Source of the DNA: Myxococcota bacterium
Lineage (GTDB): Bacteria > Myxococcota > XYA12-FULL-58-9 > JALHOP01
Length of the DNA stretch: 64,000 nt
NCBI GenBank assembly: GCA_022842935.1
Contig: JALHOP010000003.1
Span: forward strand, 310,001-374,000
Direction of reading: 5' to 3'
Part shown: piece by piece, positions 3,330 through 24,699 of the stretch
How positions within the stretch are numbered: position 1 is the first letter of the stretch
Layout: every line of letters starts with the position of its first letter
Made by a program: the position numbers and the translations under genes
Notes under the pieces: generated by a model
The model's input: the letters and a program-made list of their open reading frames with translations, nothing else
Database searches by the model: none
Told to the model about the DNA's origin: nothing

Positions 3330-4385
3330 TCAGGCTGACAGCCGCAGGCCAGCCAGCATTCCGCACGCCGCGTGTTTCGATTTACCACCGGAGTAGCGTC
3401 GGACGACCGGCGCCCTCAAGATCTGGAGGTTGTCCACGAAGCTGCGACGCTCTGCTTCGTTCGGCGGTCTATAACCGTTCTCCCGAGCATCGTTCACATC
3501 GATGAGATTGATGATGACCGGTACACCGGCGAGCAAGTCAGCGAGGGCGCGGGCTTCGTCGGCTCCGGTGTTGACCCCCGCCATCGCCACCCACGCGACA
3601 GTGACACGCGTCTTGCGAGCCAAAGCGTGCTCGCGCAAAGCATCGGCTACGTCGTTGAGCGAAAACTTCGAAGCGACCGGCAAGAGCTTCTCTCGCTTGT
3701 CTGCGATGGCGGATGTAAGCGAGACGATGAGCTTGTATCGGTGACCCTCGGCGGTGTAGCGGCGAATGCGAGGCACCAGGCCTACCGTCGAGATGGTGAT
3801 CGCTTCGGCTGACAAGCGGCAGCCGACGGGGTTCGCGATCATTTGGGCCGCGCGAATGACCGCGTCGTAGTTGTGGAAAGGCTCACCCTGACCCATGAAG
3901 ACGACGCTGGTGACGCGCCCGGCGCCCGTCTTTTGGGCCTCATCACGCACAGCAACCATCTGCGCGACGATCTCCCAGGGCTCGAGGTTCCGCATGAGCC
4001 CGAGGCGGCCGGTCGCGCAGAAGTCGCACTTCATGGCGCAGCCTACTTGCGACGACAGACAAACCGAAAACGTGCCTGGCTTGTGCAAAGGTATGCGTAC
4101 GGCTTCGGAGAGCGACCCGTCCGGGTGCTCGAAAAGGTATTTTACGAACCCATCGGCCTCGTCGGCGACACGCTCGAGCACAACGAGGCGACGATGGTCG
4201 AGGAGCCTTTCCGCGGCGTCTCGTATGTTCCGCGCGAGCGGCTTCTTCGCCGCGTCCGCGTCCGCACGGGGCGACAGCGCGTGCGAGACGATACGTGTCG
4301 CCTGGTCGTCCGTGATAGCGACGCCATTTTTGCGCATGTAGTCCGCTATCTCGGACGGAAAACTGCCGTACGGATGCGGAGCCAT
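3330..4385 (-). CDS. RlmN/Cfr-type radical SAM methyltransferase, divergent member
   Basis: The 351-residue protein has the radical SAM cluster motif at Cys116, Cys120 and Cys123 ('GCAMKCDFC'). The two cysteines that RlmN and Cfr use for methyl transfer are also present: Cys109 in 'FSVCLSSQVG' and Cys341 in 'HAACGMLAG'. 'VFMGQGEPFHNYDA' is the SAM-binding GEP segment. RlmN methylates C2 of A2503 in 23S rRNA and of A37 in some tRNAs, in the cytoplasm. The C-terminal signature before Cys341 ('RRYSGGKSKHAACG') differs from the usual RlmN form, so it may be a paralogue with another RNA target. It starts four bases after the lipoprotein stop and precedes the repeat protein. Known relatives act on RNA; action on a peptide would be new. 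Confidence 0.82.
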   Translation of the reverse strand: MAPHPYGSFPSEIADYMRKNGVAITDDQATRIVSHALSPRADADAAKKPLARNIRDAAERLLDHRRLVVLERVADEADGFVKYLFEHPDGSLSEAVRIPLHKPGTFSVCLSSQVGCAMKCDFCATGRLGLMRNLEPWEIVAQMVAVRDEAQKTGAGRVTSVVFMGQGEPFHNYDAVIRAAQMIANPVGCRLSAEAITISTVGLVPRIRRYTAEGHRYKLIVSLTSAIADKREKLLPVASKFSLNDVADALREHALARKTRVTVAWVAMAGVNTGADEARALADLLAGVPVIINLIDVNDARENGYRPPNEAERRSFVDNLQILRAPVVRRYSGGKSKHAACGMLAGLRLSA

Positions 4386-4389
4386 TGGC

Positions 4390-5205
4390 CTACTGCTGCG
4401 GCGCGGTCGGCGTTGCTTCGGGCGGAGGCTGTGGAGCCGGCGTCGGTGCGGGAGCGACTCCCTCGGCCGGCGCCGCTTGCGCCGCGAGGTGCGCCTGCAT
4501 GACCTTGGTGTCGCCGTATTCCTTCTTGGCGAGGTCCATGAGATCGGTCGCCGAGGCGTCCTTGTGATCGGTGAGCCAGCGCGCCTTGTTCAAGAGCTTG
4601 GCGGCGTCGACCTCACGTTGCTCGGAGACGAGCGAGCTGGTCAAAACCCAGGCGGTGCTGCTGCCGCCGAGGTTCACCTCGCTGAACTGGTCTTTGGTGC
4701 GCATGGCATAGACGAGAGAGCCGGCAGTGACCTTGCGCTTGGCGTTCAAGGCAAGGAGGTCCGGTCGGTCGAACGTCTTCGCTTCGTCGAGCGTGGTCGC
4801 CATCGTCACGCCCTGCGAAGGGAGTAGCGCGTCCTTCTTGGTCCAGCCTTCCTTCTCATCCGACGAGCGAACTTGCGCCCAGTCGCCCTCGACGCTCAGC
4901 ACCTGCACCTGCTCACCACGGTGCAGCGTCGTGATGTAGTTGTTGACCTTCTTGCCGGGCTTCTTCGGATCGTCGACCTGCTTGTCCTCGCTGTTGGCGC
5001 GGCGCACGGCCGTGACGCCTGTGACGAAAGCCTGCTCGCCAGCCTGGGACGGGCGTGGCTCCGAAGGCGCCAACGTGTTTGCCGCGGGCGGAGCGGTGTC
5101 CGGCGCGGGAGTCGCCTCGATAGCGGGGGCATCCTTGGTCTTGTCCTTGTCACAACCAACGATGCTGAGACCGACCAAGGCGGCAACACAGGCGATTCGC
5201 TTCAT
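4390..5205 (-). CDS. Lipoprotein with bacterial SH3-like domain
   Basis: This 271-residue protein starts with a lipoprotein signal ending in 'LSIVGC' (lipidated Cys18). A Pro/Ala-rich spacer follows, then a region near residues 60-125 with the pattern of bacterial SH3 domains: 'TAVRRA', 'LHRGEQVQVLSVEGDWAQVR' and 'EGWTKKDALL'. A second similar stretch around 140-200 may be another SH3-like unit. The tail is Pro/Ala-rich. Such proteins are often held in the cell envelope and bind peptidoglycan or protein ligands. The start at 5205 is preferred to an ATG at 5220 because GGAG lies nine bases upstream and the signal peptide then begins at residue 1. It heads an operon with the radical SAM and repeat-protein genes. 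Confidence 0.8.
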   Translation of the reverse strand: MKRIACVAALVGLSIVGCDKDKTKDAPAIEATPAPDTAPPAANTLAPSEPRPSQAGEQAFVTGVTAVRRANSEDKQVDDPKKPGKKVNNYITTLHRGEQVQVLSVEGDWAQVRSSDEKEGWTKKDALLPSQGVTMATTLDEAKTFDRPDLLALNAKRKVTAGSLVYAMRTKDQFSEVNLGGSSTAWVLTSSLVSEQREVDAAKLLNKARWLTDHKDASATDLMDLAKKEYGDTKVMQAHLAAQAAPAEGVAPAPTPAPQPPPEATPTAPQQ

Positions 5206-5252
5206 GCGGGAACTCTCCATGGCAAGCGCGACCTATGCCACACAGGCGCCCA

Positions 5253-8200
5253 TCAACGGAAGTCACCGAGGAGCGCGAAGGTGGCCCAGTGCGCGGGGTG
5301 CTCGAAAGCCGCGCGGGTCCATAGCTGGGCCGCCCTGAGGGCAGCGGCGCCGCCTTGGCGGCGTTCGCGATAAAAGCGCTTCATGAGGACGCCTGCCGCG
5401 AGATCCGAGACACGTTCTTGGCTTGCGACCAACGTCTGCGTGCCGCTCGCGAAGAACGCGCTTGAAACTGCGGCCCACGCCGCGTCGCTACCCCCAAGCG
5501 TACAGGCCGATAGAGTCACGAGCGGCGCTAGCGCCTCCATACCGAACACCTCGCGCAGCGTGAGGCGTCCATCGTCATCTTCGCCCTCCGCAAGAACAAG
5601 TCCGGCCCGCATGGGCTCGGCAGTCGCAACCTCACCGTGTACCGCCAGGTCGACGGCGTCGCCGCGCAGCGCTCGCACGGCCGCCTCGCTTGCCGCTGGC
5701 CCGAGGACGGCGCCAGAGCCGGCGATGGCGAGCGCCTCGAGCCGCGCGAAGGGGAGATCGGCGCCATGAGACACCGCGACCACCCGTTTCGGTGCTGGGC
5801 GTTGCGGCCTAGAGAGTGTGTCGACGAGTGCGGACGCGGATGGGGCATAACTCGTCGCGACACGGTCGACGAGCTGCGCACCTTGCCAGGGAAGCGCTGC
5901 GAAAGGGATACCGACCAAGGGGCCGTGTGGCACGATGACCAGGTGCTTGACGCCCAGCAGCGCGTCGCCCAGCGGATCGAGAATCGCGCGACCAATCTGC
6001 TCTCCGGTGGCGTCGACGCCACCGAAGGCGCGCAGGGCATCGCGATAGCCGTCTGCGATCTGCTTCAAGTCCGCTGGCTGAATCGGCAAAAGGACCGGTG
6101 TTAAGCTGCTCCTGCGGACGACGAGCGCGTTGGCCTGTTTGACACCGACGAGATAGAGCACGATGGCGGTGTCGTCCCGTAGCACCGCCTGCACTTCCGC
6201 GACCGAGCGTGGCGCTATCGTGAAGGCACGCGCGATGCCCGGGTAGCGGCTTCGCAACGTCGCAAGTAAGGTCGCGTGCGCCGCGCTGGCGTCGCGAGCC
6301 TGGCTGTCGTCGCCACCCATGCGTTTCTGGTCCCGCTCCGCCGCTAGGATGGCCTCACGTGCGCGACGCTCGCTCGCGACGAGCTGCCGCGCGTCGTCGT
6401 TCGGAAATGACACGTCGCTGGCCGCAATCACGTCGAGCAGGGCGCGCGCGTGGCGGCGCTCGATGAGGGCGAACGCCGTGCTGTCATCGCGCTCGACGAG
6501 CGCTAGTCGCATGGCGTCGGCATACAAGGTGTCGCGACTCTCTTCGACGCTGTCATCATCACCCGCTCGCGCCAGTCGCTCCGCCACCGTCAGCGCCGCG
6601 TCATACGCCACACGCGCCGCTTTGACGTCGCCGCTACTCTCGGCGATTCGGCCAGCGGCGTAAGAAGCCCTCCAGTCGATCTCGGGGATGGACAGCTGCA
6701 CCGCGAGGTCATGCGCGGCGGTGAAGCTCTGACTTGCCTCGTCGCGCCGGCCCGCCGCCAGCAGGGCGCGCCCGCGAACGTACAAACACTGGGCTTCGTT
6801 ATAGCGACTGCCGATCGAGCGCGAGATCTCGAGAGCACGGTCGACAGTCGCCAAGCTCTCTTGCGCCTTGCCACGGCGCTCGAGAACGGCCGCCAACGCT
6901 CGTAGATCGAATGCTTGTCCTTCGACGCCGTTCAGCTGGGTGTCGAGCTCGAGCGCCTCGCGGAAGCGAGCCTCGGCGGCCTCGAGGCGACCAGCGCGTT
7001 GGAGCACCGTGCCTAGATTGTTGAGCTGAGCAGCTTCCTCGCGGCGGCGTCCGCTACCACGGGCAAGGTCGAGTGCCGCGGTTACCGATTCGCGTGCGTG
7101 CGTAAGGTCCCCTCGGTTCATGGCGATGAGACCACCAAGGCTGAGCGCCTGGATCTCCTGAAAGTCGTTACGGTTGGCGCGCGCCAAGGTGAGAGCCGCG
7201 CTTTGCTGGTCGAGCGCCGCTGGATAGTCGCCGCGATACCACTCGATCTTAGCCGCTTCGAGCGCTGCCTCCGTACGGTCGGTGGTGTCGTTCTTGGGGA
7301 GGGCGGCGCGCGCTTGCGCGACCGCCTCTTGCGCTGCGCCGAAATCGCCACGAGCCCGGTAGGTGCGCGCCATGTCGAGGTGCAGTGTGGGGACCATGTC
7401 GGGCTCGGACATGCCCACTGCGTCCGCCAGAGCGCGCCGGTACTGCGCGAGCGCCTCGTCGTAGTCGTTGAGCGCCGTTTCATAGAGCAAGCCGAGGAAG
7501 CGACGCGGATAGAGCTGATTCTTGTGATTCTGGGCTGCGTACACCCCGATGGCCTGGGAGTAGGCTTGGCGGGCCTTTTCGTTCTCGAAGAGCCCACGGT
7601 AGGCCGAGCCGAGTCGTGACCGGCAGTCGCCCTCGATGAGCGGTAGTTTCTTGACGTGCGCGAGCTCGGCGCAGCGCGTGAGGACACGCTCGGCATCGCG
7701 GTTACGGTCGCCGTTCATGAAGGTCTTGCCCATGGCGAGTAGCTGCGCGAGCGCCTTCTCGTGGTTGCCGGCGGCGACATAGCTCTCGGCAAGCGCGTCC
7801 TGGATGGCCGCAGCCGCGTCGACCTCTCCCAACGCGAGTTTTGTCTGTGCGAGCTTGTCGCGCATTTCCAGTAGTCGCTGCGGCAGAGCCTTAGCGAGTG
7901 CGGAGGCACCGGCGCGCTTCGATGCCGCGAGGACCGGCACCGCTTCTGGCTCCATCAAGAGCTCGACGATGTTGACGAGAGCCGCGAAGTCGTCGTGCGC
8001 TCGCAGCCAGTCTTCACGTCGTTGCGACTTGGCAGCGGCTTGATAAGCGGGCCCCGCCGAGCGTGCCAGGGCGAGGAGTCGCACGAAGGCGAGATCGACG
8101 CGCTCTGCGAATGATAGTCCTCGATAGCCGACCACCATTGTGTTGACCCCGAGCTCGCCTGCTCGATGCGCCTTGGCTAGCAGCGCGCTCGCGGATTCGG

Positions 8201-11200
8201 TCGCAAGCCCACTCGCGAGGTCGTTACCGCTCTGCCCGACAATGACCGTAGGTACGCCAGCGAGCAGAAAAGCCTGGGCCAGCGAGCGCGTGATGCGAGG
8301 TGAGGGCGCCGCGGTGTCAATCCAGGCGACGGCGCTGCCAAGCGGCAGAGCGGCCAAACGATTCAGGTCGACGCTCTCGCTCTCGGGTGCGCCGTTGGGC
8401 TTCGCGAACGTGAGCTGCGCTGGACCTGGCCACGCGCTCGCCGCCTCCTCGCCGCTCACCGGGCTGGTGAAGCGCAGCAGCAAGCTACCACCACCCTCCG
8501 AAGCGAGACGTGTCACAGTTGGGTCGGCAAAGGTCACGGGCGAGCGCCGCGCGAGACTTGCGCTCTCGAAGGCCGCCGCAAGGTAACTCGCCGAAAGTGC
8601 CGCCGCTGGCTCGCCGAGGGCTCTTCCCTGAGACGTGATCGCCGTGAGCGGCGGGGCCGCGTGGCCACCAAAATCGATATACACGGCCGCTTCTGGTGAA
8701 CCCAGGAGCTTTGCAACGGCCTCGGGTAGCGCGGGCCCGGCCATCGGTTCGGTGCGCACGGCTTCCAGTCGCTTGCCGTCGATGATGAACCATGTCCACG
8801 CCTTGTCGTGCGTCGGGAACACTTGCAGCAGGGTCTCGCCTTCGGCGAGGGCGGCGCGCACCTCGGCAAGGGTTGCTGGCTTCGTGTCCAGCGTGCGCGA
8901 CAGAATCGGTCGCGTCGCAAGACGGCTCGCCACCGCCGCGCGACGCCGTGTCCCAGGATCGAGGTCCTCTAGACGTGACCGCTCGAGCAGACGCCAGGCA
9001 CGCTCGACGTCCCCCGCGTCGATGAGTGCACGGCTCGCAGCGTCGAGGAACACACGCCGTTCGGGAGCGCCCCTCCCACCACCATAGGTCTCGAATGAGT
9101 CGATGGCCGGCGCCAACGTGGTGGCGTCGAGCGTTCTCCGCGACGCAACAGCACTATCGAAAGCCGTACGCCACGAAGCGGCGGCGACTTCGGCAATGAG
9201 CATCGGTGGGCCAACGAGCTCGTCCGCCACCTGCACGGTGGCCTCGACGGGCGACCCAGCGTAGGCGCGCAGCGTATCGGTGAGCTGAAGGTCCTCGGGG
9301 ACGAGGCCCATGATGGCGTCGAGCTCGCTATTCATGGTGTCGAGGGCGTCGATGCGAGCCGCTAAGTTCGTCCCTACTTCGGCGACCGATGGCGGCGTGA
9401 ACAGCCCCGCGAAGCGCTCGAGCGCTAGCCATCGCGACAGCCGCAACGCCGTCGTCGCATCGCTCTGTCGGGCTACGTCGATCATCGAGTTCGCAAGAGC
9501 ACGCGCGCGCGTCGCGATTACGTCGTCACGGCTCTTGGGCTCGCGCGCCCAAAGAGCGGATAGCGACTCCAAGATTGTCACCAGCTCCGTGACGTAGCCA
9601 TTGGCCTGACAGATGGTTAGCGCTCGATTCCAAAGCGCCATCGCCTGGGTTGGGTTGCCGGCTTGCACTTCGATGAGCGCGCTCTCGTTCGCAGCGTGCA
9701 AGATCTCTGGTTGTATGCGGGAGGCCATGGCCTCGTCCTCGGCTGCCTCATCGATTAGCTGAAGCCGTCGCGTTGCGAAGCTCCGCGCCCGCGACAGGTC
9801 GCCGCGCTCGCGTAGCGCGCGGGCAGCAGCCGAGCGGGCCACTTCCTCTTCGAGGTCCGCTGGAAATCCGTAGGGCGCGCGCGTCACGTTCGTGGGGTTC
9901 GCGGCGATCTCGGGCGCAAGGAAGCCCAACAGAGGTTTGTCGGGTTCGGGTACGCCGATACCGCGGCTCGTTAGCTCGAGCAGTGCCGCGAAAGCGTCGA
10001 GGGCGGCGTCGTCGCGATGCAGGAAGCGCAACGCTAGCGCCTTGCCCCGCAGCATGGGGACGACGCGGGTCCAGTCTTCACGTTCGCGGTAGAGCTGCTC
10101 GGCGCGCTCGTACCAATCGACTGCTTCTTCGTGAAGCTTTGCCTGCAAGTAGATGGATGCCTGTAGCGCGGCGGCAGTGGCGAGGCGCGGGCGGCCGGGC
10201 AGCGACTTCGCAAAGACCCATTCTTGATGCGCCATGTCGAGCGCGACGTCGAGCTCGTCCATGCGCCAGGCGGCGCGCGAAAAGGACTCGAAGAAGAGCA
10301 AGCGGGTCAGTGGGTCGTCGAAGCGCACCGAAGACCCGTTCCGTGCCAGAAACCCAGCGAACGCGTCGTCGTTCTTGCCAAGACCAAGCAACGCGTTGGC
10401 GCGGTTGAGTTGCGCTGCCGCCCAGAGTTGCGGGTCTTCTTCGGGATCGACGAGCTCGAGTGCGGTTCGAAAGCTCGATTCCGCTCGGTCGAGCCAGTCG
10501 CGCCCCGGGCTTCGTTGCTCCCGCTGCATGCGCAGCCAACCCATGGTGAGATGCGCCGCAGCGAATCGCGGGTCGAGGTCGAGCGCTGCGCCAATCTCGC
10601 GCTCGGCGCGCGACAGATCGACCGTCGAAGCGAAGGTGAGGGCGTAGCCATAAGCGTATCGACTCACCGCGTCGCGGGGGCGGGCTCTCGCTGCTACTTC
10701 GTAACTCGCGAGGACAGCGTCGCTCTTTCCCAGGCGGGCCGACAGCGCGATGTAGCGCCGGTGAGCCAAGGCGTTGTCGCGCCGACCTTCGAGAAGGCGG
10801 GCGTAGCTCGCACGGGCCTCCTCGAGTCGTCCTTCAGCCTCCTCCTTGTCCGCTTTGGCGAGCGCAAGGCGTGTCACGCCTGCGCGTGCGCGTCCGCGGG
10901 TTTTGGGATCGCTTCCGAACTGACTGAGGAGTTGCTCGTAGGCTTCGAGCGCGATGCCCCGCTCTTCCTCGCGTTCGGCCGTCTCGCCCAACGCAATCAG
11001 GGCATCAGCGACTGTGCGCGTCGCGGTGGGGTACTTGCGTACGAGTCCTTGCCATGAGGCGATGGCGAGCCGCGGGTGACCATGCCGCGCTTGCTCGTGG
11101 CCGAGCACGTTCATGGCGGGCGCCGCGACTGGCGGCAGCTTCTCGTAGCGACGAACGATGTCTTCGACCGCCGCGGTCGGGTTCTCCGCGGCGGAGGCCT

Positions 11201-12815
11201 TGGCGGCGTCGAGCCAGGTACTTGCGCAGCGCTCGACGTAGAGCCGTTCGCCACCGAAGCGGGTAAGCAGCGCCGCGCACACGCGCTCGACAGCTTCTGC
11301 ATCGGCGAAGCGCGCGTAGAGTCGGCTTGCGTGATCGAGGGCGCGCGCGCCGTCTTCTGTCGAGACATCGGTAGGCGCGGCGATAGCCTCGAACCCGGCT
11401 AGCGCAGCCGCGTAGTGACCACGTGCAAGCGCAAGCTCCGCCAGCGTCGTCGCGAGCCGGTGCTGGACGGCTGGCGTCTCGGGGTGGGTCTTGGCGATTG
11501 CTTGCATGGACGTGGTTGCCTGCTCGAGGACGCGCGCGGGCGGCGGAGCGCCGCTGTCAAAGCGTCCGCCCAACACTTGCAAGACCGCCACGCGCTCGAT
11601 TTCGATCGCAGCCACACCTTGCAGGGGGTCCCCAACGAGCTCATCGACCGCGCGCGACAACTCGGCACGGGCCTCGGGTAGCTTGCCGCGTTCTTCGAGA
11701 TCACGCCCAAGCTCGTAGCGGGCACGACCACGCAACTCGGGGCTTGTCGCGGTGATATGACGAAGCGCGAGACGCCGGAGCGCGGCATCGGGTTCGGCCC
11801 GTGCTGCCTCGAGTACAGCGCTGCTATTCGCGTCGCGCTGTACCATGCCGTCTGCGGGAAGAGCGTAAATCTCGAGGTCCGCGTAGCCCGCCGCAGTGTA
11901 AGCGATCCAGTTGGGCGCGATCGCCGCAAGCAATTCCCCGCCCGCGCCGGGGGTGAGCGGCAGCGCTTCCGCTACTTGTCCGTTTTCGAAGACGCTCGGG
12001 TCGATGACCGTCGACCACAGGCTCGCTTCGTCGTCGCTGGCCACCCGCCCGTCGCCGGTACTGTCGTCGACGAAGCGGGTGAAGACGACCGTGGGCCGGC
12101 CCTCGAGCATTGCGAATCGAGGCAAGCCGTCCAGGTACACACCGTCCGTGACAGCCGCGACGCGACCGTCGGCGAGCCGCTTCGCATAGAGGCGCGGGGT
12201 GCCGGTCGTGTCCGCTGCGACGTAGACGAGGATCTTGCCGTCTGGCGACGGTGCCGGGTCCCAGGCGTTGGTGAGCACGACGGTCCGCTTGCGTCCGGAC
12301 AGCTCGATCGCGTCGATACGGGCGGGTCCTCCGTCGCCGGTGCGGGTGGTGAAGTAGATGAGCTTGCCATCGGCGCTCCAGGCTGGCGCGCTCTCGGATG
12401 CATCACGCTCGGTGAGCTGGGTCTTGTGCTCTCCCTCTGCGTCCATGATCCAGACGTCACCCTTCACGTCGTCGCTCTGCGCGACCCACGCGATGCGCTT
12501 TCCGTCGGGCGAAAAAGCGGGGTCGGTGTCGTCGGACGAGTGGGTGGTCAGTCGACGCACGAGACCGGTCGTCTGCGTCCTCACGAAGATGTCGAGGTTC
12601 CCGCCTTGTTTCGACACATACGCAATGAGCCCCGCCGTGCCGGCGAGGGTCGGCATCATGTCGTCTTCGGTATTCTCGACCAGGGGTTCGGCGGTGTTGA
12701 ACACGCCTGCCCGTGGTGGCCCGAACTCTGGGGACATGAGCGTCTCGGGCGCATCGTGGGCGCATGCCGTCGCTGCGAACGCGGCCGCAAGCACGATGTG
12801 GCGACGAGCTGTCAC
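5253..12815 (-). CDS. Giant exported lipoprotein: TolB-like propeller, TPRs, degenerate CHAT, TPRs, CHAT protease
   Basis: The predicted 2520-residue protein starts at a GTG sharing four bases (GTGA) with the preceding stop. A signal sequence ends in 'AATAC', suggesting a lipid anchor. Residues about 40-300 form a TolB/WD40-like propeller ('DPAFSPDGKRIAW', 'APSPDGKILVYV'). TPR helices fill about 340-1270 and 1630-2180. The C-terminal 320 residues are a CHAT caspase-like protease domain with His2393 ('LAVHGEV') and Cys2438 ('LSACTLGG'). Residues about 1300-1620 look like a second CHAT domain without the His-Cys pair. CHAT-TPR proteins are proteases or scaffolds in several signalling and defence systems; the substrate here is unknown. 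It is the last gene of an operon with a YdbL-like lipoprotein and an AsmA-like protein. Confidence 0.85.
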   Translation of the reverse strand: MTARRHIVLAAAFAATACAHDAPETLMSPEFGPPRAGVFNTAEPLVENTEDDMMPTLAGTAGLIAYVSKQGGNLDIFVRTQTTGLVRRLTTHSSDDTDPAFSPDGKRIAWVAQSDDVKGDVWIMDAEGEHKTQLTERDASESAPAWSADGKLIYFTTRTGDGGPARIDAIELSGRKRTVVLTNAWDPAPSPDGKILVYVAADTTGTPRLYAKRLADGRVAAVTDGVYLDGLPRFAMLEGRPTVVFTRFVDDSTGDGRVASDDEASLWSTVIDPSVFENGQVAEALPLTPGAGGELLAAIAPNWIAYTAAGYADLEIYALPADGMVQRDANSSAVLEAARAEPDAALRRLALRHITATSPELRGRARYELGRDLEERGKLPEARAELSRAVDELVGDPLQGVAAIEIERVAVLQVLGGRFDSGAPPPARVLEQATTSMQAIAKTHPETPAVQHRLATTLAELALARGHYAAALAGFEAIAAPTDVSTEDGARALDHASRLYARFADAEAVERVCAALLTRFGGERLYVERCASTWLDAAKASAAENPTAAVEDIVRRYEKLPPVAAPAMNVLGHEQARHGHPRLAIASWQGLVRKYPTATRTVADALIALGETAEREEERGIALEAYEQLLSQFGSDPKTRGRARAGVTRLALAKADKEEAEGRLEEARASYARLLEGRRDNALAHRRYIALSARLGKSDAVLASYEVAARARPRDAVSRYAYGYALTFASTVDLSRAEREIGAALDLDPRFAAAHLTMGWLRMQREQRSPGRDWLDRAESSFRTALELVDPEEDPQLWAAAQLNRANALLGLGKNDDAFAGFLARNGSSVRFDDPLTRLLFFESFSRAAWRMDELDVALDMAHQEWVFAKSLPGRPRLATAAALQASIYLQAKLHEEAVDWYERAEQLYREREDWTRVVPMLRGKALALRFLHRDDAALDAFAALLELTSRGIGVPEPDKPLLGFLAPEIAANPTNVTRAPYGFPADLEEEVARSAAARALRERGDLSRARSFATRRLQLIDEAAEDEAMASRIQPEILHAANESALIEVQAGNPTQAMALWNRALTICQANGYVTELVTILESLSALWAREPKSRDDVIATRARALANSMIDVARQSDATTALRLSRWLALERFAGLFTPPSVAEVGTNLAARIDALDTMNSELDAIMGLVPEDLQLTDTLRAYAGSPVEATVQVADELVGPPMLIAEVAAASWRTAFDSAVASRRTLDATTLAPAIDSFETYGGGRGAPERRVFLDAASRALIDAGDVERAWRLLERSRLEDLDPGTRRRAAVASRLATRPILSRTLDTKPATLAEVRAALAEGETLLQVFPTHDKAWTWFIIDGKRLEAVRTEPMAGPALPEAVAKLLGSPEAAVYIDFGGHAAPPLTAITSQGRALGEPAAALSASYLAAAFESASLARRSPVTFADPTVTRLASEGGGSLLLRFTSPVSGEEAASAWPGPAQLTFAKPNGAPESESVDLNRLAALPLGSAVAWIDTAAPSPRITRSLAQAFLLAGVPTVIVGQSGNDLASGLATESASALLAKAHRAGELGVNTMVVGYRGLSFAERVDLAFVRLLALARSAGPAYQAAAKSQRREDWLRAHDDFAALVNIVELLMEPEAVPVLAASKRAGASALAKALPQRLLEMRDKLAQTKLALGEVDAAAAIQDALAESYVAAGNHEKALAQLLAMGKTFMNGDRNRDAERVLTRCAELAHVKKLPLIEGDCRSRLGSAYRGLFENEKARQAYSQAIGVYAAQNHKNQLYPRRFLGLLYETALNDYDEALAQYRRALADAVGMSEPDMVPTLHLDMARTYRARGDFGAAQEAVAQARAALPKNDTTDRTEAALEAAKIEWYRGDYPAALDQQSAALTLARANRNDFQEIQALSLGGLIAMNRGDLTHARESVTAALDLARGSGRRREEAAQLNNLGTVLQRAGRLEAAEARFREALELDTQLNGVEGQAFDLRALAAVLERRGKAQESLATVDRALEISRSIGSRYNEAQCLYVRGRALLAAGRRDEASQSFTAAHDLAVQLSIPEIDWRASYAAGRIAESSGDVKAARVAYDAALTVAERLARAGDDDSVEESRDTLYADAMRLALVERDDSTAFALIERRHARALLDVIAASDVSFPNDDARQLVASERRAREAILAAERDQKRMGGDDSQARDASAAHATLLATLRSRYPGIARAFTIAPRSVAEVQAVLRDDTAIVLYLVGVKQANALVVRRSSLTPVLLPIQPADLKQIADGYRDALRAFGGVDATGEQIGRAILDPLGDALLGVKHLVIVPHGPLVGIPFAALPWQGAQLVDRVATSYAPSASALVDTLSRPQRPAPKRVVAVSHGADLPFARLEALAIAGSGAVLGPAASEAAVRALRGDAVDLAVHGEVATAEPMRAGLVLAEGEDDDGRLTLREVFGMEALAPLVTLSACTLGGSDAAWAAVSSAFFASGTQTLVASQERVSDLAAGVLMKRFYRERRQGGAAALRAAQLWTRAAFEHPAHWATFALLGDFR

Positions 12816-13345
12816 TTCTTCGCCCAGCCTTCCTGCCTCTCGACCCACTCACCAGGCTTTGCGCGCTCAGCGAGCAGACGGTGGTACATATCGATGAGCT
12901 GCGCGCGGCCCTTGCCAGTGAAGGTCGCGTCGCTCGTTGCCACCCAGTCGAGAATGGCTTCGCGATCGGCGTTCTCCTCGGCGAGGAGACGGTCGCGTCG
13001 TGTCGCATCGTCGCCGGTCGCGTCGCATTCGCGGGCGGCGAGCATGGCGTTCTTGGCTTCGCCCAGGCAGCCGCGTCTCTTGAGCTCGTCGACCTCGTCG
13101 CGATTGAAGACCTGACGTCGTCGGGCCGCCATGGCGTACGCTTGTGTTGTGTCTAGGCCCGTCAGCTCGGGGTCGGCGGAGGGCGCGCGCACCGAGGCCG
13201 CCAGTAGCTGCTCGTCCGAGAGTGGCTCGAGCTCGCCCATGAGCTGGCGCTCGAGCGCCGTCTTGGTGCCGATGTTCACCGGTCGCGTGGTGATCGTGCA
13301 GCTCAGTACGGCCGGCAAGAGGAGGACTGTCAGTCTATTTCGCAT
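12812..13345 (-). CDS. DUF1318 (YdbL-like) lipoprotein
   Basis: This 177-residue protein has a lipoprotein signal ending in 'AVLSC' (Cys16). The C-terminus 'RAKPGEWVERQEGWAKK' closely matches the end of E. coli YdbL, the type member of DUF1318. The segment after the lipid anchor ('NIGTKTALERQLMGELE') is typical of larger DUF1318 lipoproteins. In E. coli, ydbL lies with ydbH (an AsmA-like lipid-transport protein) and ynbE (a small outer-membrane lipoprotein). Here the gene overlaps the end of an AsmA-like gene by 11 bases, so the pairing is the same, and lipidation suggests it joins YnbE- and YdbL-like roles in one chain. That fusion idea is inference. Its end overlaps the CHAT gene start by four bases. 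Confidence 0.8.
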   Translation of the reverse strand: MRNRLTVLLLPAVLSCTITTRPVNIGTKTALERQLMGELEPLSDEQLLAASVRAPSADPELTGLDTTQAYAMAARRRQVFNRDEVDELKRRGCLGEAKNAMLAARECDATGDDATRRDRLLAEENADREAILDWVATSDATFTGKGRAQLIDMYHRLLAERAKPGEWVERQEGWAKK

Positions 13346-16300
13346 GCCATCCCAGAAGCGGCGCCACGGTTTTGTCGATGTGCGGCTGCAGGTGGAAATC
13401 CAGCTGCTCGCTCACCGAGTACCGGCGTAGGAGCTCGCGGTCGATGTTTGGAAAACCAATGTTGGTGAACGGGATACGCATGAAGGTGGTCACGTCGATG
13501 TCCATGTTCAGGTTCTCGTAGCGCATCCACATGGCGACGTTGTCGATCCGCACGAACTTGAGCTGACCCCGTGTGCGCTGCAGGCTCTCGTTCTTCTCCT
13601 CGGGGTCGAGGAGCTGCAAGAAGCGATCGAGCGTCTTGCTGCCGATCTTGGTGACGTTCATGTTGAAGTCGATGTCGCGGCGCTTCGGGGCGAAGACGAA
13701 GCTCATGTGCATGTCGGCGTTCATCTCCGAGTCGGGGCCCGGCGCGAGGTTGAGCATCGAAAACGTGCTCGCGTCGATGTTGGAAACCTTGAAGTCCATG
13801 TCACCCGTAAGCGAGCGATCCTTGCCGAGGCGGAAGTCCAGGTTGCCGACGATGTCGCCGCCAAGCAGATGCATGGCCAGGCGGTCGGCGCGCAGACGCC
13901 CGTTCGCCATACTGCCATCGAGCTCGAAGTTCTGGACGATATAGGGACCGCTCTGGATTCGTCTTATGCTCACGCCTTGCAGATCGCGGTAGTCGTGTAA
14001 GCGGTCGTAGTAGGCGGGCCGGCCGCCCAGGGCTGCGGTCGTATCCTCGGTGATGAGCCCGACCTCGCCGAAGGACAACCCGCGCGCGAGCGGTGTCGTA
14101 CCTGGGCGTCCGTCGAACGCAAGACGGACGTCGAATGGTAATGAGCCGGACAGCCCCTCCAATGCGTTCTCACCGATCTTGGCCGACAGCTCGTTGGCGC
14201 GAATGTCGCCGGTGATGACTGCGGTGCCGCCGGCCACCACGAAGCTCCCACGACTCGTCATCTCGCCGCCTATGGCGAGTCCTCCGGCACCCAGAGCGAG
14301 CGCCTCCCGATTGGCGACGCGTAGCTCGTAGGCGGCGTCGAGCGCGAGCCCAGGCAGGCCGGGCTGCTCCCAGCTCTTCACGATGGCGACGTCGAGCGGC
14401 GCCTTCATCGCGGCGCGCGCTTCGAAACGCGTGCCCAGGGTCGGTAGGCTTAAGCCGAATCGATCGATGACAACGTCGCCGCCCAGGTCGTAGCGGGCGC
14501 TCCCCTCGAACGCAGTGTTCTCGAGGGCGAGCGGCGAGCCGCTTTGCTTGGTGTAGCCGACGAGGCCGAGTAGCTTACTCTCGGCGTGGTCACCGACGAG
14601 CTCGGCGGTCCACTCCCATCGCATGTCGCGCACGGTTTGCGGCCGCATCACTTTCGCCATTTCCAGCAAGACGCGTAGCGACGGCCCATGCTCGGAGAGG
14701 GTCATGGTCGCGAGCATGTGTCCGCCGTCGCAGTCAGTGGCCTCATCGGTGTAAGCGACGTCACTCACTTCGAAGCTCATGTCGGCGCTGAAGGGAAGGC
14801 CCTGAATGAGACGCTTTGCCCAGCGGTTTGCAAAGCCACTATAGGCCGAGAGCGTCGCTCCCCAGACGTCGCCGCCGCGCGGGATCGCGGGCGCTTGCGC
14901 AAGGGCCGTCAGCTCCACGTAGGGAAGCGTGCCCTTCGCTTCGGCGTGCGCCTTCATGCTGCCGCTGATGACAGCAGGAGGCCGCGCCGCTTTCGGGAGC
15001 AGATTGATGAGCTCTTCGAGGCTCGTTGGCTCGAGATCGAGCGCGAAGCTCTTGATGCGTGGCGCTTGCGAGAGCGCCGCGTCGACCGAGGCGTTGCCAG
15101 TCATGCGCATGATGTTGCCGAGCTGCATCGACAAGGCAGGGATGGCGACGCTTTGACCGCGGCGCCTGACCGTCATGGCCGCCGTGAGTCGCGGCACCGT
15201 CATATCGCCTTGCGGTAGCGGCGTGGTCGCCGAGCCCACGCCCGCTTGCATCACCACGTCGACGACACTGGCCGCGAGGTCACCCTGGCTCACGTCACAC
15301 GAGAGGTTGATGTCGCGCGCGAGACTGCCCGAGGCAGTGACTTTACCGATGCCAACGACTGCGTTCGTTCGTAGCGGTGCAGTCGCCGGGAGGTTTCGTA
15401 ACATGCCGATCGGCCCGGTCGATTCGAGGTGCAGGGTGACTGCGTCCGCGCTGGCCGCCGGCGCTTCGGCGTGGCCGATGCGCATGTCACTTACCATCGC
15501 GAACATGCCCTCACCTTCGCCGAGCCATGGCGCGATTGGTGTGGTCAGCTCGAGTGTCGCCGCGAGCTGGTTTGCGGCACCTTGCGGGGCACTGGCCGAG
15601 CTCATGGTTGCGTCCGCCGACAATCCAACGATGCCGTCCGCCAAGCTCAATGCGGCGTTGGCGTCGAGATCGGTGATGACGTTCCCCATCGCGCTGACAT
15701 GTATGTTGGACGCTTTGGCGGATATGTTGCTGGAAACGTCCGTGGGCTTCGCGCCTGCTACGAGCTTCATGGGGGCCGCAGCCAGCTCGATGTGGCCGCC
15801 AACGCGGACGCCTGGTGCGAAAGCGCTGATGAAAGGCGAGAGCTCGCTCAGGTTCGAGCCACCAGCGAGCTTGTCGATGCTCACGGTGGGAGTGCCGAGC
15901 ATTCCGTGCACCGAGGTAGCGAGCTCGACCTTCGTGCCTTTGCCCAGTTGGAAGCTGGTGTCTATCAGGGTCGCGGTCTGCGCGAGCAGATTCATTTGTA
16001 GGCGCGCCTTGGCTGCCGACGCGAGCGCTGGAAGCTTTTGTGGCGCCGAGAGCGTCGTCACCGCTTCGACGTCGAGCAAAAGGTCGACGTCGCCGAATCC
16101 GCTGCTGCGAACGGTGAGCCCTCCGTGCTGGTCGCTGACGAGCGCGACACCGGACCCAGCATAGCTCGCCCGTGATCGGGTTGGTCCCTGATGGTCGCCG
16201 ACGCCCATCCATAGGTCGAGACTCATCGCGTCGCCTTCACCCTCGAAGCGGCCTTCGAGGCCGAGCCGGTCGAGCATCGCGCTGAGCTCCGGCGAAACCA

Positions 16301-16895
16301 TCTCGCCCTGGAGCTCGGTGAAGGAAATGCGAGACACGATGACGTGCACTGGCAGCCGCGGCTGAGCCAGCGGCTCTTTTGGGGGGGGCTCGGGGCGCTC
16401 TGGCTGCGGCTCGGGCTCGGCGGCAGGGGGGCGCGCGTCGCCTTGGATATTCGCGAGCAAGGCGTCGATGTTGGTGCCGCGTGCGTTCTTCTCCATGACC
16501 GCGGTGACGCCACGCGCCGACAGGTCGGGTACTTCGACGGTCTTGGAGAGCAGAGGCGGCAGACGCCACGCGAGATGCGCGTAGTCGACGACGAGCACGT
16601 TCCGGGTGAATCCGGGTGGCGGGCCAATGACGAAGCGCTCGATGGTCAGCTCGGAGGCTACGTCGAGGCTCAGGCCGCCGATGGTCACCGGCACTCCGAG
16701 CAGGGAGGTCGCCTGCTCCTCGGCGATGCGTCGCAGGCGATCGTCGGTGAAGACGACGGTGCGCGCGAACCAGACAATCGCGGTCAGGGCGATGAGCCCA
16801 AGGGTGGCGAGCAGAGCGAGCCGTCGCAGCCAGCGCCAACGCTTGCGCCGTGGTCGGGCTTCTTGCGGCCCTTCCTGGCCCGTTGGTTCGGTCAT
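13335..16895 (-). CDS. AsmA-like giant envelope protein (DUF748/YdbH-like)
   Basis: The 1186-residue protein has a basic N-terminus, one membrane helix at about residues 25-46 ('LALLATLGLIALTAIVWF') and then a long, mostly beta-strand periplasmic region. 'LLGVPVTIGGLSLDVASELT' and 'GTNIDALLANIQ' are typical of the AsmA/TamB/YdbH superfamily N-terminus, and the C-terminal 250 residues ('GGDIVGNLDFRLGKDRSLTG') have the AsmA C-terminal pattern. These proteins form long hydrophobic grooves that bridge inner and outer membranes and carry phospholipids. A Pro/Glu-rich linker sits near residues 155-175. The DUF1318 lipoprotein gene overlaps the 3' end, supporting a YdbH-like assignment. It heads the three-gene operon. 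Confidence 0.82.
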   Translation of the reverse strand: MTEPTGQEGPQEARPRRKRWRWLRRLALLATLGLIALTAIVWFARTVVFTDDRLRRIAEEQATSLLGVPVTIGGLSLDVASELTIERFVIGPPPGFTRNVLVVDYAHLAWRLPPLLSKTVEVPDLSARGVTAVMEKNARGTNIDALLANIQGDARPPAAEPEPQPERPEPPPKEPLAQPRLPVHVIVSRISFTELQGEMVSPELSAMLDRLGLEGRFEGEGDAMSLDLWMGVGDHQGPTRSRASYAGSGVALVSDQHGGLTVRSSGFGDVDLLLDVEAVTTLSAPQKLPALASAAKARLQMNLLAQTATLIDTSFQLGKGTKVELATSVHGMLGTPTVSIDKLAGGSNLSELSPFISAFAPGVRVGGHIELAAAPMKLVAGAKPTDVSSNISAKASNIHVSAMGNVITDLDANAALSLADGIVGLSADATMSSASAPQGAANQLAATLELTTPIAPWLGEGEGMFAMVSDMRIGHAEAPAASADAVTLHLESTGPIGMLRNLPATAPLRTNAVVGIGKVTASGSLARDINLSCDVSQGDLAASVVDVVMQAGVGSATTPLPQGDMTVPRLTAAMTVRRRGQSVAIPALSMQLGNIMRMTGNASVDAALSQAPRIKSFALDLEPTSLEELINLLPKAARPPAVISGSMKAHAEAKGTLPYVELTALAQAPAIPRGGDVWGATLSAYSGFANRWAKRLIQGLPFSADMSFEVSDVAYTDEATDCDGGHMLATMTLSEHGPSLRVLLEMAKVMRPQTVRDMRWEWTAELVGDHAESKLLGLVGYTKQSGSPLALENTAFEGSARYDLGGDVVIDRFGLSLPTLGTRFEARAAMKAPLDVAIVKSWEQPGLPGLALDAAYELRVANREALALGAGGLAIGGEMTSRGSFVVAGGTAVITGDIRANELSAKIGENALEGLSGSLPFDVRLAFDGRPGTTPLARGLSFGEVGLITEDTTAALGGRPAYYDRLHDYRDLQGVSIRRIQSGPYIVQNFELDGSMANGRLRADRLAMHLLGGDIVGNLDFRLGKDRSLTGDMDFKVSNIDASTFSMLNLAPGPDSEMNADMHMSFVFAPKRRDIDFNMNVTKIGSKTLDRFLQLLDPEEKNESLQRTRGQLKFVRIDNVAMWMRYENLNMDIDVTTFMRIPFTNIGFPNIDRELLRRYSVSEQLDFHLQPHIDKTVAPLLGWHAK

Positions 16896-17057: not shown

Positions 17058-17816
17058 ATGCTGCGCGCCTTGGTTGTTACGGCCTTCACCCTTCTGACCG
17101 GCACGGCTTTGGCCGCCCCCGAGACCCTCGTGGTTCGCGGCCAGGACGGCAGCTTCATGCCGGGCGCCGCATCAAGCTGGAAAGAAGAGGGTGGGAGCGT
17201 CCGCTTCAACCTCGTCGACGGGGTCGAGTCCTCCGCGGTTGTCGCTGCCCTCTCGGAGCGCATCGCCGGCGCTCAGTTCAAGGCCGAGGCCAAGGCGGTG
17301 GTCGTTAGCGGGGTTCCCCTGGCGCGACTCCTCGAACAGGTCGCGAGCATCAACCTCGGGGGCGACCCCCTAGCTGGCATCGCGGGCATGCAGGGTACCA
17401 CCGTCGCTTTTGCGCAGCCCGAGGCGGGGGGCTCCATTCGCGCCACCAAGCCGCAACTCATCGAGGCGCTCGTACCCCATGAACCGACGGAGCGGCTCGA
17501 GGCCGAGGTCGTCGAAGCTCAGCGTGGCATATTCCCGGCCGTCGCCTTGAAGCTGCGTGTCCGCAGGCCGGCGAAGACCGGTCCATTTGCAAAGCAGCTG
17601 GCGGGCGACAAGGTCTTCACCGGCGTCGTGGCGTTCACGGGCAAGCAGACGGTCGATCTTGCTAGCGAGTCCAACCAGCGCAATGCCGGCGCGTACTACT
17701 TGCAGCAGCGCGACCGGGTGTTCGTGCACGTCAATCAGCTCGATGCCAAGGGCTCGATTGCTCGCATCGACTGGATCGAACGGACAGATGCGGCGGCAAA
17801 GGCAAAGAGGCCCTGA
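17058..17816 (+). CDS. Secreted protein of unknown function
   Basis: The 252-residue product begins with a clear signal peptide ('MLRALVVTAFTLLTGTALA', predicted cleavage before 'APETL'). A GGAGGA ribosome site lies eight bases before the ATG. The mature chain mixes short strands and helices, has no cysteine and no obvious catalytic motif. Residues about 60-120 ('AALSERIAGAQFKAEAKAVV', then 'GVPLARLLEQVASI') resemble the small secretin N-type modules seen in envelope proteins, but this is only a faint likeness. I do not recognise the family. It is divergent from the AsmA-like gene and convergent with the outer-membrane beta-barrel gene, so it is probably its own transcription unit. Confidence 0.75.
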   Translation: MLRALVVTAFTLLTGTALAAPETLVVRGQDGSFMPGAASSWKEEGGSVRFNLVDGVESSAVVAALSERIAGAQFKAEAKAVVVSGVPLARLLEQVASINLGGDPLAGIAGMQGTTVAFAQPEAGGSIRATKPQLIEALVPHEPTERLEAEVVEAQRGIFPAVALKLRVRRPAKTGPFAKQLAGDKVFTGVVAFTGKQTVDLASESNQRNAGAYYLQQRDRVFVHVNQLDAKGSIARIDWIERTDAAAKAKRP

Positions 17817-20832: not shown

Positions 20833-23800
20833 CTAGACGTAGGAGATCTTGCTGCGCGAGGCCTTCTCCGCCTCGGTCTCGGTAAGCAACTCGTCGAGCT
20901 CACTGGTGACGTCGCTGCCACCTTCGCCGCGAGCGCGGCCAAGGCGCTCCTCGACATCGCGGAAGCTTGCGTCCCAGCTGTGAACCTTCTCGTAAAACTT
21001 GCCGGCCTCTCCGAAACGGCCGGTGGCTTCGTAGGCCACGCCGATCTCGTAGCGAAGGGCCATGGCCTGCTGCGCGGTCACCGACGGCGCGTTCAAGCCC
21101 CGCTGAAAGTACGCAAGAGCATGCTCGGTATCGCCGAGCTGGAGGGCGCATAACCCCATCATCGTGAGTGCTCCGATCGCCCGCGTTGGATCTTTCGCCG
21201 CGAGCTCGAATTCACGGATGGCGTCGGGGAGGAGATCCATCTCCTTGTAGGCGATGCCGAGGTCGTAGTGGGTTGCGTAGTCGGCTTCCTCGACGCTCTC
21301 GGCCACGCCCTTCTTGAAAGCGTCGAAGACGTCATCGAGCGACTCTTGCAGGTCGTCGTCCGCCGCAGCGGACTGGAGATCGGCCGCAATATCGAGACCC
21401 AGGTCGCCACCAATGAGCATCTCCGGCTCGGGCTCGTAGTCGAGCGCGGCGGCTGGCGGCAGGACCGGCTCCGCGGTGCCGTCGACCTTGGCCTTCATGG
21501 CGAGCAAGTCGGGGTGTGTCGGATGCTCGCGCAGGAGATTGGCGACCATCTCGCGCGCTTCGTCCTCGAGCCCCTGCTCGAGGTAGAAGCCGATTTCGGC
21601 TACCTCGCTGGCCAGATCGACTGGAGCGACTTCGGAGACTCCGTCGTTCGCTTTGGCGGCAGCTGCCGCAGCGTTGGCCGCCGCCTCGGTTTCGGCCGCG
21701 ACCCGCGCGGCTTGCGCCTTCTCTGCTTCGAGACGCTCGGCCTCGGCCCGGGCTGCCTCCGCCTTGGCCGCGGCTGCGGCCGCCAAAGCAGCCTCGTGAC
21801 GCTCGGCTTCCAGCTTTGCGGCGGCTTGGGCTGCCTCGAGCCGTTCGGCCTCGGCTTGCGCCCTGGCTGCCTCGTCGCGGGCTGCTTCCGCTTTAGCCGC
21901 TTCAGCTTTGGCGGCGTCTGCTTTGGCTTGCTCCGCCTTGGCGGCCGCCGCGAGTCGGGACTTGTCGGCTGCCGGCTTCGTTTCCTTGGGGCGCGAGGGG
22001 ACAGCGGAGTTGATCAGCGCGTCGAGATCGTCGTCGAGCTTGGTGGTCGTTCTGACCGGCTTGGCCTTTGCGGCGATCGGCTCTTCGGCACTCGGCTTCT
22101 CGGCACTCGGCTTCTCGGCGCTTGGCTCTTCGGCACTCGGCTTCTCGGCGCTTGGCTCTTCGGCGCTCGGCTTCTCGGCGCTCGGCTTCTCGGCACTCGG
22201 CTCTTCGGCGCTCGGCTTCTCGGCGCTCGGCTCTTCGGCGCTCGGCTTCTCGGCGCTCGGCTTCTCGGCGCTCGGCTTCTCGGCGCTCGGCTCTTCGGCG
22301 CTCGGCTTCTCGGCGCTCGGCTTCTCGGCGCTCGGCTCTTCGGCGTCAGGCGCTTTCGCCAACCAGTCCGTATCCGCTTCGTCTTCGACCTCGAATGTCA
22401 GCTCGAGTGTCGTCCCCGGCGCCGCCGTCTCGACCTCGATGCGAGGAGCACTCGTTTCGACGGTCGTCGGGGTGCTCTCGGCGAAGGTGAGCTCATCCAA
22501 CTTGCTGTGGGTAGGTGGCTCGTCTTCGAGCTCGACCGTGATGCCCACGGTGTCGTCGTCATCATCCCCAATGATGAGGCCGGCTATCGAGGGGGCGTCG
22601 ACGGCGCTCGTGGCGTCGAGGTCGGCGCCGATGATCGAATCGTCGTCGAGCTCCATCTCGGCGTGGGCGCCAATAAGCTCCTCGTCGTCCGCATCGAGAT
22701 CGATCTCGGCTGCTTTTTCGGACGGTTCGTACGAAAGCATGGCGGCGGCGGCCTCGCGCGGCGCGGCAATTGCCGGGACGTAGTCGTCGCTGACCATATC
22801 GTCGGTGATCGTCAGCTCGTCTTCGTCGAGCTCGTGCTCGAACGAAAGCGCCTCCGGGCCCTTGGCTGCCGCTGGGGCAAGCTTTGCGAGGAGGTCTTTG
22901 GCGCGTCGGTGGCCTGGCGTAAGGCTGAGCAGCTCCTCGAGGTCGCGGCGTGCGGTCTCGGTTTCGCCTTGCTCGACCGCTACCGCGGCCATGCCCAAGA
23001 GAACCTCGACGGCCTCTTCGTTGGCGCCGGTATCGATGAGGAGCGTCTTGTAGCGGGAGCGCGCTTCGCGGTGGTCGGGCGCTAGGGCGAAGATCTTGCG
23101 TAGGTGGTCGACGGCCTTCTGCTTCAAGCCGTATTTTATGTAGACCTCGGACTCGACCAAGATGCGCGAGATGGTCTCGCGCGTGTTGTCGCCGAGCCCC
23201 CCGCGCGTTGGCGTTGGCGCGACCTCGATGGCATCGGCGCTCGCGAGCTCTTGCTCGTCGAAGTCAGTCTCGATCTCGATTTCCTCGTCCGCATCGACTT
23301 GTGGCGGGCGACGATCGATCTCCTGCACCGGTGACTCGGGCCTTGCCTGCACGGCCTTCTGCGCCGGCACGATGCGACCGAGGGCGTTGTCGGGCAATTG
23401 CGAGGACTGCGCGAGCTGCGCTGGCGAGACCTCACCCGTGCCGCGACGCGCGGGCGCTGCTGGCGGGGATTGTTGCTCGGCGATGCCGCGCGCTGCGGCA
23501 ACCTGCGCCGGCGAGACCTCGCTGGTGCCTCGGCGTGCCGCGCCTTGGGCGGCGATCGCCTCCATGGCGGCGATCTGCGCCGGGCTGATTTCGCCCGTCG
23601 AGCGGCGCTGAGTCTGGTTCACCACCTGTTGCACCGCGGCGACCTGCTCAGGACTCATCTCGCCGGTGATACGACGCGTCGGCATCGCCAACGCTTGAGC
23701 GGACTGGACCTGGGAGGGCGACACCTCCATCGTGGGCCGGCGAGGTGGCGGCGTCGCGGGGCCACCTTGAGGTGTGCTTTGGCGTATCGGTGGCTGTGGC

Positions 23801-24699
23801 CTCGCCCCGGCACCAAGCGCCTGACGGGCTTCGACGTCGTCCGGGTCGATCGCCAGGATGCGCCGCATGATGCTCTGGAAGCTCGGCACGTCGTTCGCGG
23901 CTTCGTGGATGCGGGCGATTTCGCGATAGACCGAGATTGTCTTCTGCGGTTGCTCGAGGTCTTTGAATGCTGCCGCGAGCAGATTCAGCGTTTCAATGTC
24001 CTTGGGATTCGCCTTGAAGCAGACCTGCAGCTTTGCCAGGGCGCGTCGCGGGTCGCCCTTCTGAATGTAGATGTTGGCGAGCTCTTTGGTGGTGCGCAGG
24101 TCGTTCGGGTCGAAATGGATGATGCGCTCGGCGACCTTCACGTAGTCGTCGACACGATGATGCGACTTGAGAAACTGCGCTGCCTTGGTGAACTCGGCGC
24201 GCGCGTCCTCGAGCATGTTCTGCTTGGCGTAGACCTCGGCGAGCTTGATGCGGCTGGCGACGTTCTCGGGGTCGAGCTCGACCATCCGCTGCAGGACCTT
24301 GATGCTCTCCTCGACGCGGCCGCTCTGCTCGTAGAGCTGGCTGATCTGCCGGTATTGATTCGCGGCGTCCGACATCAAGCCAAGCTGATGATAGAGATCG
24401 GCCAGCTTGAGATTGACCTCGATGAGGTTGGGATCGAGCTTCAGGATCTGCTTGTAGACAGCGACGGCTTTCAGAAAGAAGCCCTGCTCCGAGTAGAACT
24501 GCGCCACCAGTCCGTAGGTGGTCGTGGCCTCGGAGTTCGCCCCGGTGCGCGTCTGCAGGTCGCCGATCTTGAGCAGCGTGCGGACGTCTTTGGGATCTTC
24601 TTCGACGAGGCGCTGGTACTCGCGGATCGCCTTGTCGATCTGTCCCTTTTGCAGGAACTTCTGCGCGGAAGCCCTGATTTTGTCCTTGTTGTTCGCCAC
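20833..24699 (-). CDS. Large TPR protein with low-complexity repeat linkers
   Basis: From the GTG at 24699 (protein '[20 protein letters not shown]') the product is 1288 residues. An N-terminal TPR solenoid of about eight units covers roughly residues 5-310. Next come five copies of a short motif ending '[11 protein letters not shown]', one more helical pair near 550-620, an acidic stretch, 17 copies of a five-residue [10 protein letters not shown] unit, an Ala-rich coiled coil rich in 'KAEAA', and a C-terminal TPR block ('[20 protein letters not shown]'). There is no signal peptide or membrane helix, so it should be a cytoplasmic scaffold. TPR proteins with this N-terminus are common in myxobacteria, but I cannot name a specific pathway. 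A start at 24777 is less likely because the extra residues look non-coding. Confidence 0.8.
22078..22345 (-). repeat. 15-bp coding repeat, about 17 copies ([10 protein letters not shown])
   Basis: Nearly identical 15-base units encode 17 consecutive PSAEK or PSAEE pentapeptides within the TPR protein. The Lys/Glu choice alternates irregularly, while the nucleotide sequence is otherwise almost constant, which suggests recent expansion by slippage or unequal exchange. Copy number is likely to vary between strains. Since 15 is a multiple of three, gain or loss keeps the frame. Confidence 0.9.

Follow-up and report, generated by a model that had tools for sequence, protein, structure and literature searches.

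The question raised by this locus is whether a single, very large bacterial protein carries, in front of the CHAT protease domain at its C-terminus, a second CHAT domain that has lost its catalytic residues, and what such a domain could do for its active-looking partner. The gene is located in a 64,000-nucleotide stretch from a Myxococcota bacterium (contig JALHOP010000003.1, positions 310,001 to 374,000), which we call the window and whose coordinates are used throughout. A preliminary description, made from the sequence alone, had proposed a pseudo-protease followed by an active protease, each behind TPRs, and had suggested that the pair arose by internal duplication.

The gene and the parts of its product

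The gene, on the minus strand at 5253-12815, lies in an open frame (5253-12848) whose natural start is the GTG at 12815. This GTG overlaps the TGA stop of the upstream gene (GTGA), and for that reason the gene boundaries 5253-12815 and the residue number Cys2438 given in the preliminary description are right. Residue numbers in the present analysis count from 12848, and the earlier numbers are obtained from ours by subtracting 11 (our Cys2449 is the earlier Cys2438). The sequence motifs quoted in that description could all be located in the protein: EGETLLQVF... at residues 1336-1355, VYIDFGGHAAPPLTAI at 1389-1404, AWIDTAAP at 1508-1515, FLLAGVPTVIVGQSGN at 1527-1542 and LSACTLGG at 2446-2453.

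The product, 2520 amino acids from GTG 12815, is an exported-type protein in which a beta-propeller, a TPR region, a pseudo-CHAT domain, a second TPR region and a CHAT domain follow one another, all encoded on the minus strand. A lipoprotein-like signal peptide (12762-12815), read by eye and with a simple pattern, has a Cys (residue 29) at its end. It is followed by a PD40/TolB-like beta-propeller at approximately residues 76-345 (11814-12623), which matches PD40 with an E of 1.9e-21 and a TolB model with an E of 6.9e-22. We considered membership of the TolB family and rejected it, as the score of 77.9 bits compares with an equivalog cut-off of 343 and the likeness is confined to the propeller. 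An N-terminal helical, TPR-like region (approximately residues 350-1100; 9549-11801) is conserved in relatives and matches TPR-type models at residues 574-651 and 671-778. The pseudo-CHAT domain, delimited by profile comparison and a predicted model, covers approximately residues 1310-1577 (8118-8921), and the second TPR region, found with TPR_12 and other Pfam models, approximately residues 1650-2105 (6534-7901). The C-terminal CHAT domain, delimited by Pfam and a predicted model, covers residues 2205-2531 (5256-6236) and has its catalytic dyad intact.

The hydrophobic stretch ending in a Cys just ahead of the propeller is present in all 14 proteins for which the start region is available (the window protein and 13 relatives); the simple pattern caught 5 of the 14 and the remainder were read by eye. 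The protein is probably exported and anchored in the outer membrane as a lipoprotein.

A second CHAT domain in the middle of the protein

The Pfam matches in the window protein are PD40 repeats near residue 97, TPRs mostly at about 1790-2090, and one CHAT at 2280-2529, which matches PF12770 with an E of 4.5e-43 (148.2 bits against a cut-off of 24). There is no convincing Pfam match at residues 1100-1640; at the curated cut-off the middle segment does not match PF12770, the middle regions of five distant relatives give no Pfam CHAT match even at an E of 5, and the window genome contains no second CHAT at an E of up to 0.001. Since Pfam recognizes the C-terminal CHAT only, a plain domain search overlooks the middle copy.

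Profile comparisons gave a different result. When 14 middle segments were compared with 13 C-terminal CHAT domains using hhalign, the two sets matched with a probability of 98.7% (P 2.4e-16) over 285 colinear columns, and reversed-profile controls (0.2-1.1% probability, n=8) and other-domain controls (0.1-0.3%, n=8) were clean, so that the resemblance exceeds what chance would give. Smaller sets agreed: the middles of the taxonomic order to which the window genome belongs matched the C-terminal CHATs of the same order at 94.6% (P 7.2e-8), the middles of the more distant group matched all C-terminal CHATs at 98.1% (P 8.4e-14), and the lowest value among eight true comparisons run alongside the controls, for the order's middles against the C-termini of the distant group, was 40.3% (P 2.9e-4). 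The middle profiles of the two main groups match each other at P 3.3e-17. An HMM built from middle segments alone found the window's own C-terminal CHAT (E 1.0e-15, 57.9 bits) and also stand-alone TPR-CHAT proteins, and a PDB sequence search with the middle profile returned a chance coiled-coil match and nothing else.

The statement that each CHAT stands behind TPRs also held, as the first and second units of TPR, linker and CHAT align in order over 526 columns (P 4.2e-15). The helical parts that precede the two CHATs match at P 1.3e-7 in the distant group and barely in the order (P 0.004) when compared alone. The helical repeats taken by themselves are little proof, because a control comparison of the second pre-CHAT part with the N-terminal TPRs reached P 6.6e-5.

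The preliminary description had named a predicted structure of the middle segment lacking a caspase-like sheet as the outcome that would count against it, and the model did not turn out that way. We modeled residues 1225-1665 from ten sequences, and the model matched from residue 1225, with a helical lead-in. The model (pLDDT 76.7, pTM 0.69) resembles Csx29/Craspase (Z 14.5, 311 residues, rmsd 6.5), separase (Z 14.4, 314 residues, rmsd 5.3) and DdvA (Z 11.1, 282 residues, rmsd 7.9), and unrelated structures score about Z 6 and lower. It is a rough model, since Foldseek gave one convincing match, to Craspase (E 1.2e-4, TM 0.37), with no other below 0.001, and the rmsd values are in the range of 5-7 A. 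The model of the C-terminal domain has a pLDDT of 85.6 and a pTM of 0.85, with Z scores of 31.8 to Csx29/Craspase, 29.5 to separase and 22.5 to DdvA. Strands and helices succeed one another in the same way in both models, except that one helix of the N-terminal half is absent from the middle model and from the middle copies of the order. Profile comparison and predicted fold both identify the middle segment as a CHAT domain.

The joint alignment places the catalytic residues of the C-terminal CHAT at His2404 (5637-5639) and Cys2449 (5502-5504), and the corresponding columns of the pseudo-CHAT hold Pro1463 (8460-8462) and Ala1513 (8310-8312), all on the minus strand. The column of the catalytic Cys contains Cys in 13 of 13 C-terminal domains and in none of 16 middle domains, which share neither a substitute nucleophile nor any other residue at that position. 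The catalytic His is likewise present in 13 of 13 C-termini but in only 2 of 16 middles (L012 and L016). The alignment register of the second of these is doubtful; in the first (L012, from genome G006) an Ala-His-Gly falls exactly in the His column, the Cys being lost, and looks like a relic. The absence of His-Gly from the middle copy, as first described, is therefore true of the window protein but not of this relative. The C-termini of two members of family f7 and of L046, which are outside the count of 13, have the His and a Ser-Ala/Thr-Cys at the expected places. Read from these alignments, the middle CHAT is catalytically dead, with the Cys missing in every relative examined, and the C-terminal CHAT is an active-looking protease with an intact dyad. 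The proposed succession of a dead and a live-looking CHAT is thus well supported; the duplication proposed along with it is only possible, and an old fusion fits equally.

Distribution, history and conservation

A search of 97 genomes (the window genome and its relatives) found the middle segment in the window genome and in six more, and all seven belong to one order. Five of the six have end-to-end homologs of 2527-2728 amino acids with 30-40% identity; in the sixth (G001), where the middle segment was found by BLAST, the gene is cut by a contig end and its probable C-terminal part is on another contig (L046). A scan of contigs for homologs gave nine loci, of which four were on contigs already known and five came from more distant Myxococcota/Deltaproteobacteria, in which the parts follow one another in the same way, in frames of 2664-3157 amino acids. 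Among 195 genomes of the phylum, a profile built from ten middle segments matched 25 at an E of up to 0.001; by our reading, 14 of the 25 matched strongly in the middle segment proper, and the rest were stand-alone CHAT or TPR proteins or weak matches. A third family, f7 (G008 and G029), gave weak matches to the middle profile that were confirmed by reading the sequences. All 13 full-length members have the middle domain, as do the three members truncated by contig ends that reach this region. Family f8 also has stand-alone TPR-CHAT proteins (L042, L054, L055 and L056), in open frames of about 1040-1120 amino acids.

A maximum-likelihood tree was built from 14 middle, 14 C-terminal and 8 stand-alone domains (36 in all). 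The 14 middle domains form one clade (support 100/99) that was recovered in all 200 bootstrap trees and has both main groups inside it; the middle copy therefore had a history of its own before these groups diverged and, on the simplest assumption, was dead by then. Judged from these sequences, the middle domain is an old, retained pseudo-enzyme, kept as one lineage. The middle clade is joined to the tree by a long branch and falls outside the C-terminal copies as well as the stand-alone CHATs, which are placed on the C-terminal side, and some rows are very long or of odd composition, with branches of up to 2.6 changes per column. For these reasons the tree does not distinguish duplication from fusion. 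Internal duplication of a TPR-CHAT unit is possible. The two CHATs may instead have come together by fusion of two different TPR-CHAT proteins, with no internal duplication and the same working mechanism, an origin to which we would give somewhat less than an even chance: the stand-alone TPR-CHATs of f8 have the next-best scores with the middle HMM after the double-CHAT family itself (66, 62 and 61 bits), a little higher than those of the C-terminal CHATs in the double-CHAT proteins, and the position of the middle clade in the tree points the same way. Against this, the C-terminal CHAT of the window protein comes close to these values (the 57.9 bits given above), and the long branch makes that position unreliable.

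The middle domain is among the least conserved parts of the protein. Mean identity within the order is 28% for the middle domain, 26% for its lead-in and 40% for the C-terminal CHAT, and within f8 it is 35% for the middle domain and 56% for the C-terminal CHAT. Such low conservation fits relaxed constraint after the loss of catalysis, and it would be compatible also with a role as a spacer. The middle domain would then be a degenerate leftover, a rigid connection between two TPR solenoids that neither regulates nor binds anything, and the long branches and the helix lost from the order's copies could be read in the same sense. We think this unlikely, since the domain has been kept in every full-length member and in the truncated members that reach it, the two main groups remain alike in their middle profiles, and the motif around FLLAGVPTVIVG is still readable in most middle copies.

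Genomic neighbors, known systems and a proposed mechanism

The CHAT gene follows two other minus-strand genes with which it forms an overlapping cluster; the two upstream genes occupy 12812-16895. The nearer one (12812-13345) encodes a lipoprotein-like protein with a DUF1318 (YdbL-like) match over the cut-off (E 1.5e-7), and the farther one (13335-16895) a DUF748/AsmA-type (YdbH-like) protein of 1186 amino acids with a weak Pfam match (20.3 bits against a cut-off of 50). All three genes are present in seven of eight genomes of the order, the eighth (G003) having none of them, and adjacency of the two upstream genes to the CHAT gene was seen in six order relatives. The Pfam assignments in relatives are weak: of five scanned for DUF1318, three are below the cut-off of 27 (24.2, 19.7 and 26.4 bits) and two have no match, and the DUF748 matches are likewise sub-threshold, with a second protein at 25.8 bits and a third without a match. 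The ORF upstream of the f7 gene in L058, which Pfam does not call, is 41% identical to the window DUF1318 protein. A minus-strand gene for an SH3-domain protein (4390-5220, Pfam), 32 bases past the CHAT gene, has no match near the CHAT gene in the loci of relatives.

Other features of the window were recorded along the way. A divergent plus-strand gene (17058-17816) for a 252-amino-acid protein without a Pfam match stands beside the cluster in six order relatives. A 15-base tandem array of 18 copies (22071-22345) lies inside a minus-strand frame (20833-24777) and encodes Glu-Lys/Glu-Pro-Ser-Ala repeats within a large TPR-like protein. A minus-strand radical SAM gene (3330-4385) resembles RlmN-type 23S rRNA methyltransferases, with scores below the model cut-offs.

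The neighbors in f8 are of another kind. An MCP gene is directly upstream of the double-CHAT gene in six of six members examined (L023, L024, L025, L026, L027 and L059), a count that leaves out L060, which starts at a contig end, and G030, where the gene is split over contigs. The downstream ORF was scanned at five f8 loci, and in three it is a convergent, minus-strand glycerol-3-phosphate acyltransferase gene (L023 12380-15100, L024 12369-14687, L025 12402-14996); the ORFs scanned at the other two gave no such match. Because the genomic neighbors differ between groups, a link to lipid transport cannot be general. These sensing and lipid-transport neighbors, together with the lipoprotein-like start and the fast-changing middle sequence, could also suggest that the middle CHAT has been recycled as a sensor that binds a ligand (a lipid, a peptidoglycan fragment or a peptide) through its old substrate cleft and is no partner of the active CHAT. 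We regard this as improbable, as no conserved group of cleft residues is apparent in the invariant columns.

The closest structural match of both models is Csx29, in which TPRs are likewise followed by CHAT. According to the available part of PMC10028731, Csx29 has a CHAT1 pseudo-caspase half ahead of an active CHAT2 and is switched by a TPR activation region, whose movement is induced by RNA. It contains one CHAT unit made of two half-domains, whereas the window protein has an extra, complete, dead TPR-CHAT unit. Csx29 is CRISPR-linked, while the window protein looks exported and none of the ten neighboring ORFs scanned with Pfam was Cas7-11, Csx30 or any CRISPR gene. Csx29 is a cytoplasmic protein. 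We also considered and set aside a link to CRISPR or to a catalogued defense system, for which PADLOC matched only a general TPR model.

Separase is the second likeness, through a common fold with a His-Cys dyad that is suggested by the Z scores of both models. The window protein differs in its two complete CHAT units and its bacterial context, and separase has one PPD/APD pair and is not known to have a propeller, an export signal or a second TPR-CHAT unit. The resemblance of TPR-CHAT to separase is noted in the available portion of PMC9729208, and a figure legend in PMC10003635 describes a pseudo-protease domain (PPD) before the active protease domain (APD), behind a TPR-like region. This contrasts with PMC4626109, whose authors, in the part of the paper available, were unable to find an inactive caspase-like domain in separase.

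DdvA (PDB 8rot and 8rw5), by its title a transmembrane anti-sigma factor with a CHAT domain, is a membrane-linked CHAT protein, as the window protein probably is too. Among solved structures it is the one whose sequence matches the C-terminal CHAT best (E 2.7e-7), with His-Gly and Ala-Cys in the alignment. It differs, as far as its title and entry go, in having 991 amino acids, one CHAT and a membrane-spanning character, and no anti-sigma domain was found in the window protein. The two upstream genes are arranged like those for YdbH and YdbL in the E. coli YdbH-YnbE-YdbL locus and resemble them, with a DUF748 match below the threshold and a DUF1318 match above it, although no separate YnbE was identified in the window. 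The accessible part of PMC12977461, which describes YdbH as an AsmA-type intermembrane lipid bridge, mentions no CHAT gene at the E. coli locus. Our literature searches for tandem, double, inactive or pseudo CHAT domains returned only unrelated neurobiology or scallop neurotransmitter-enzyme titles; those combining the CHAT domain with periplasm, Myxococc-, tetratricopeptide or lipoprotein gave nothing on point among the matches listed, and a search for the DdvA structure found no paper.

The reading we prefer, with a probability of roughly 0.6, is that of an exported propeller/TPR lipoprotein in which the dead CHAT serves as regulator or substrate holder of a live CHAT that cuts an envelope protein. 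The propeller and TPRs would sense something in the envelope. The dead CHAT would act as a non-catalytic partner, either by holding on to the substrate or by restraining the active CHAT until the TPR solenoid moves, and it is by analogy with separase and Csx29 that we infer such an autoregulatory or substrate-holding role, which the preliminary description had also suggested. Once freed, the active CHAT could cut an envelope protein, in this order plausibly one of the upstream DUF748/DUF1318 lipid-bridge-like module; that choice of substrate, and with it a connection to lipid transport, is a suggestion for this order. A more elaborate version, which we offer as speculation with the odds well against it, is a self-contained envelope signaling protease, where the propeller and first TPR region would feed the dead CHAT, which would gate the live one through the second solenoid; a cue would then lead to cleavage of the AsmA-type lipid bridge of the same operon or, in f8, the protein would work with an MCP-type receptor.

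On this more elaborate version, the protein would be a separase-like protease acting outside the cytoplasm and controlled by its own pseudo-enzyme twin. Separase and Csx29 pair dead and live half-domains within one CHAT unit; in the window protein, which is apparently exported, it is a whole TPR-CHAT unit that has become a pseudo-enzyme and has long been kept beside a live-looking one. Other proteins may contain dead CHATs of this kind that have gone unnoticed, given that Pfam does not detect the middle copy at all. How a protease is controlled by a dead twin could be studied in this naturally occurring double-CHAT protein, which also suggests that CHAT proteases have a function in the envelope of Gram-negative bacteria, with lipid transport to the outer membrane as one possibility.
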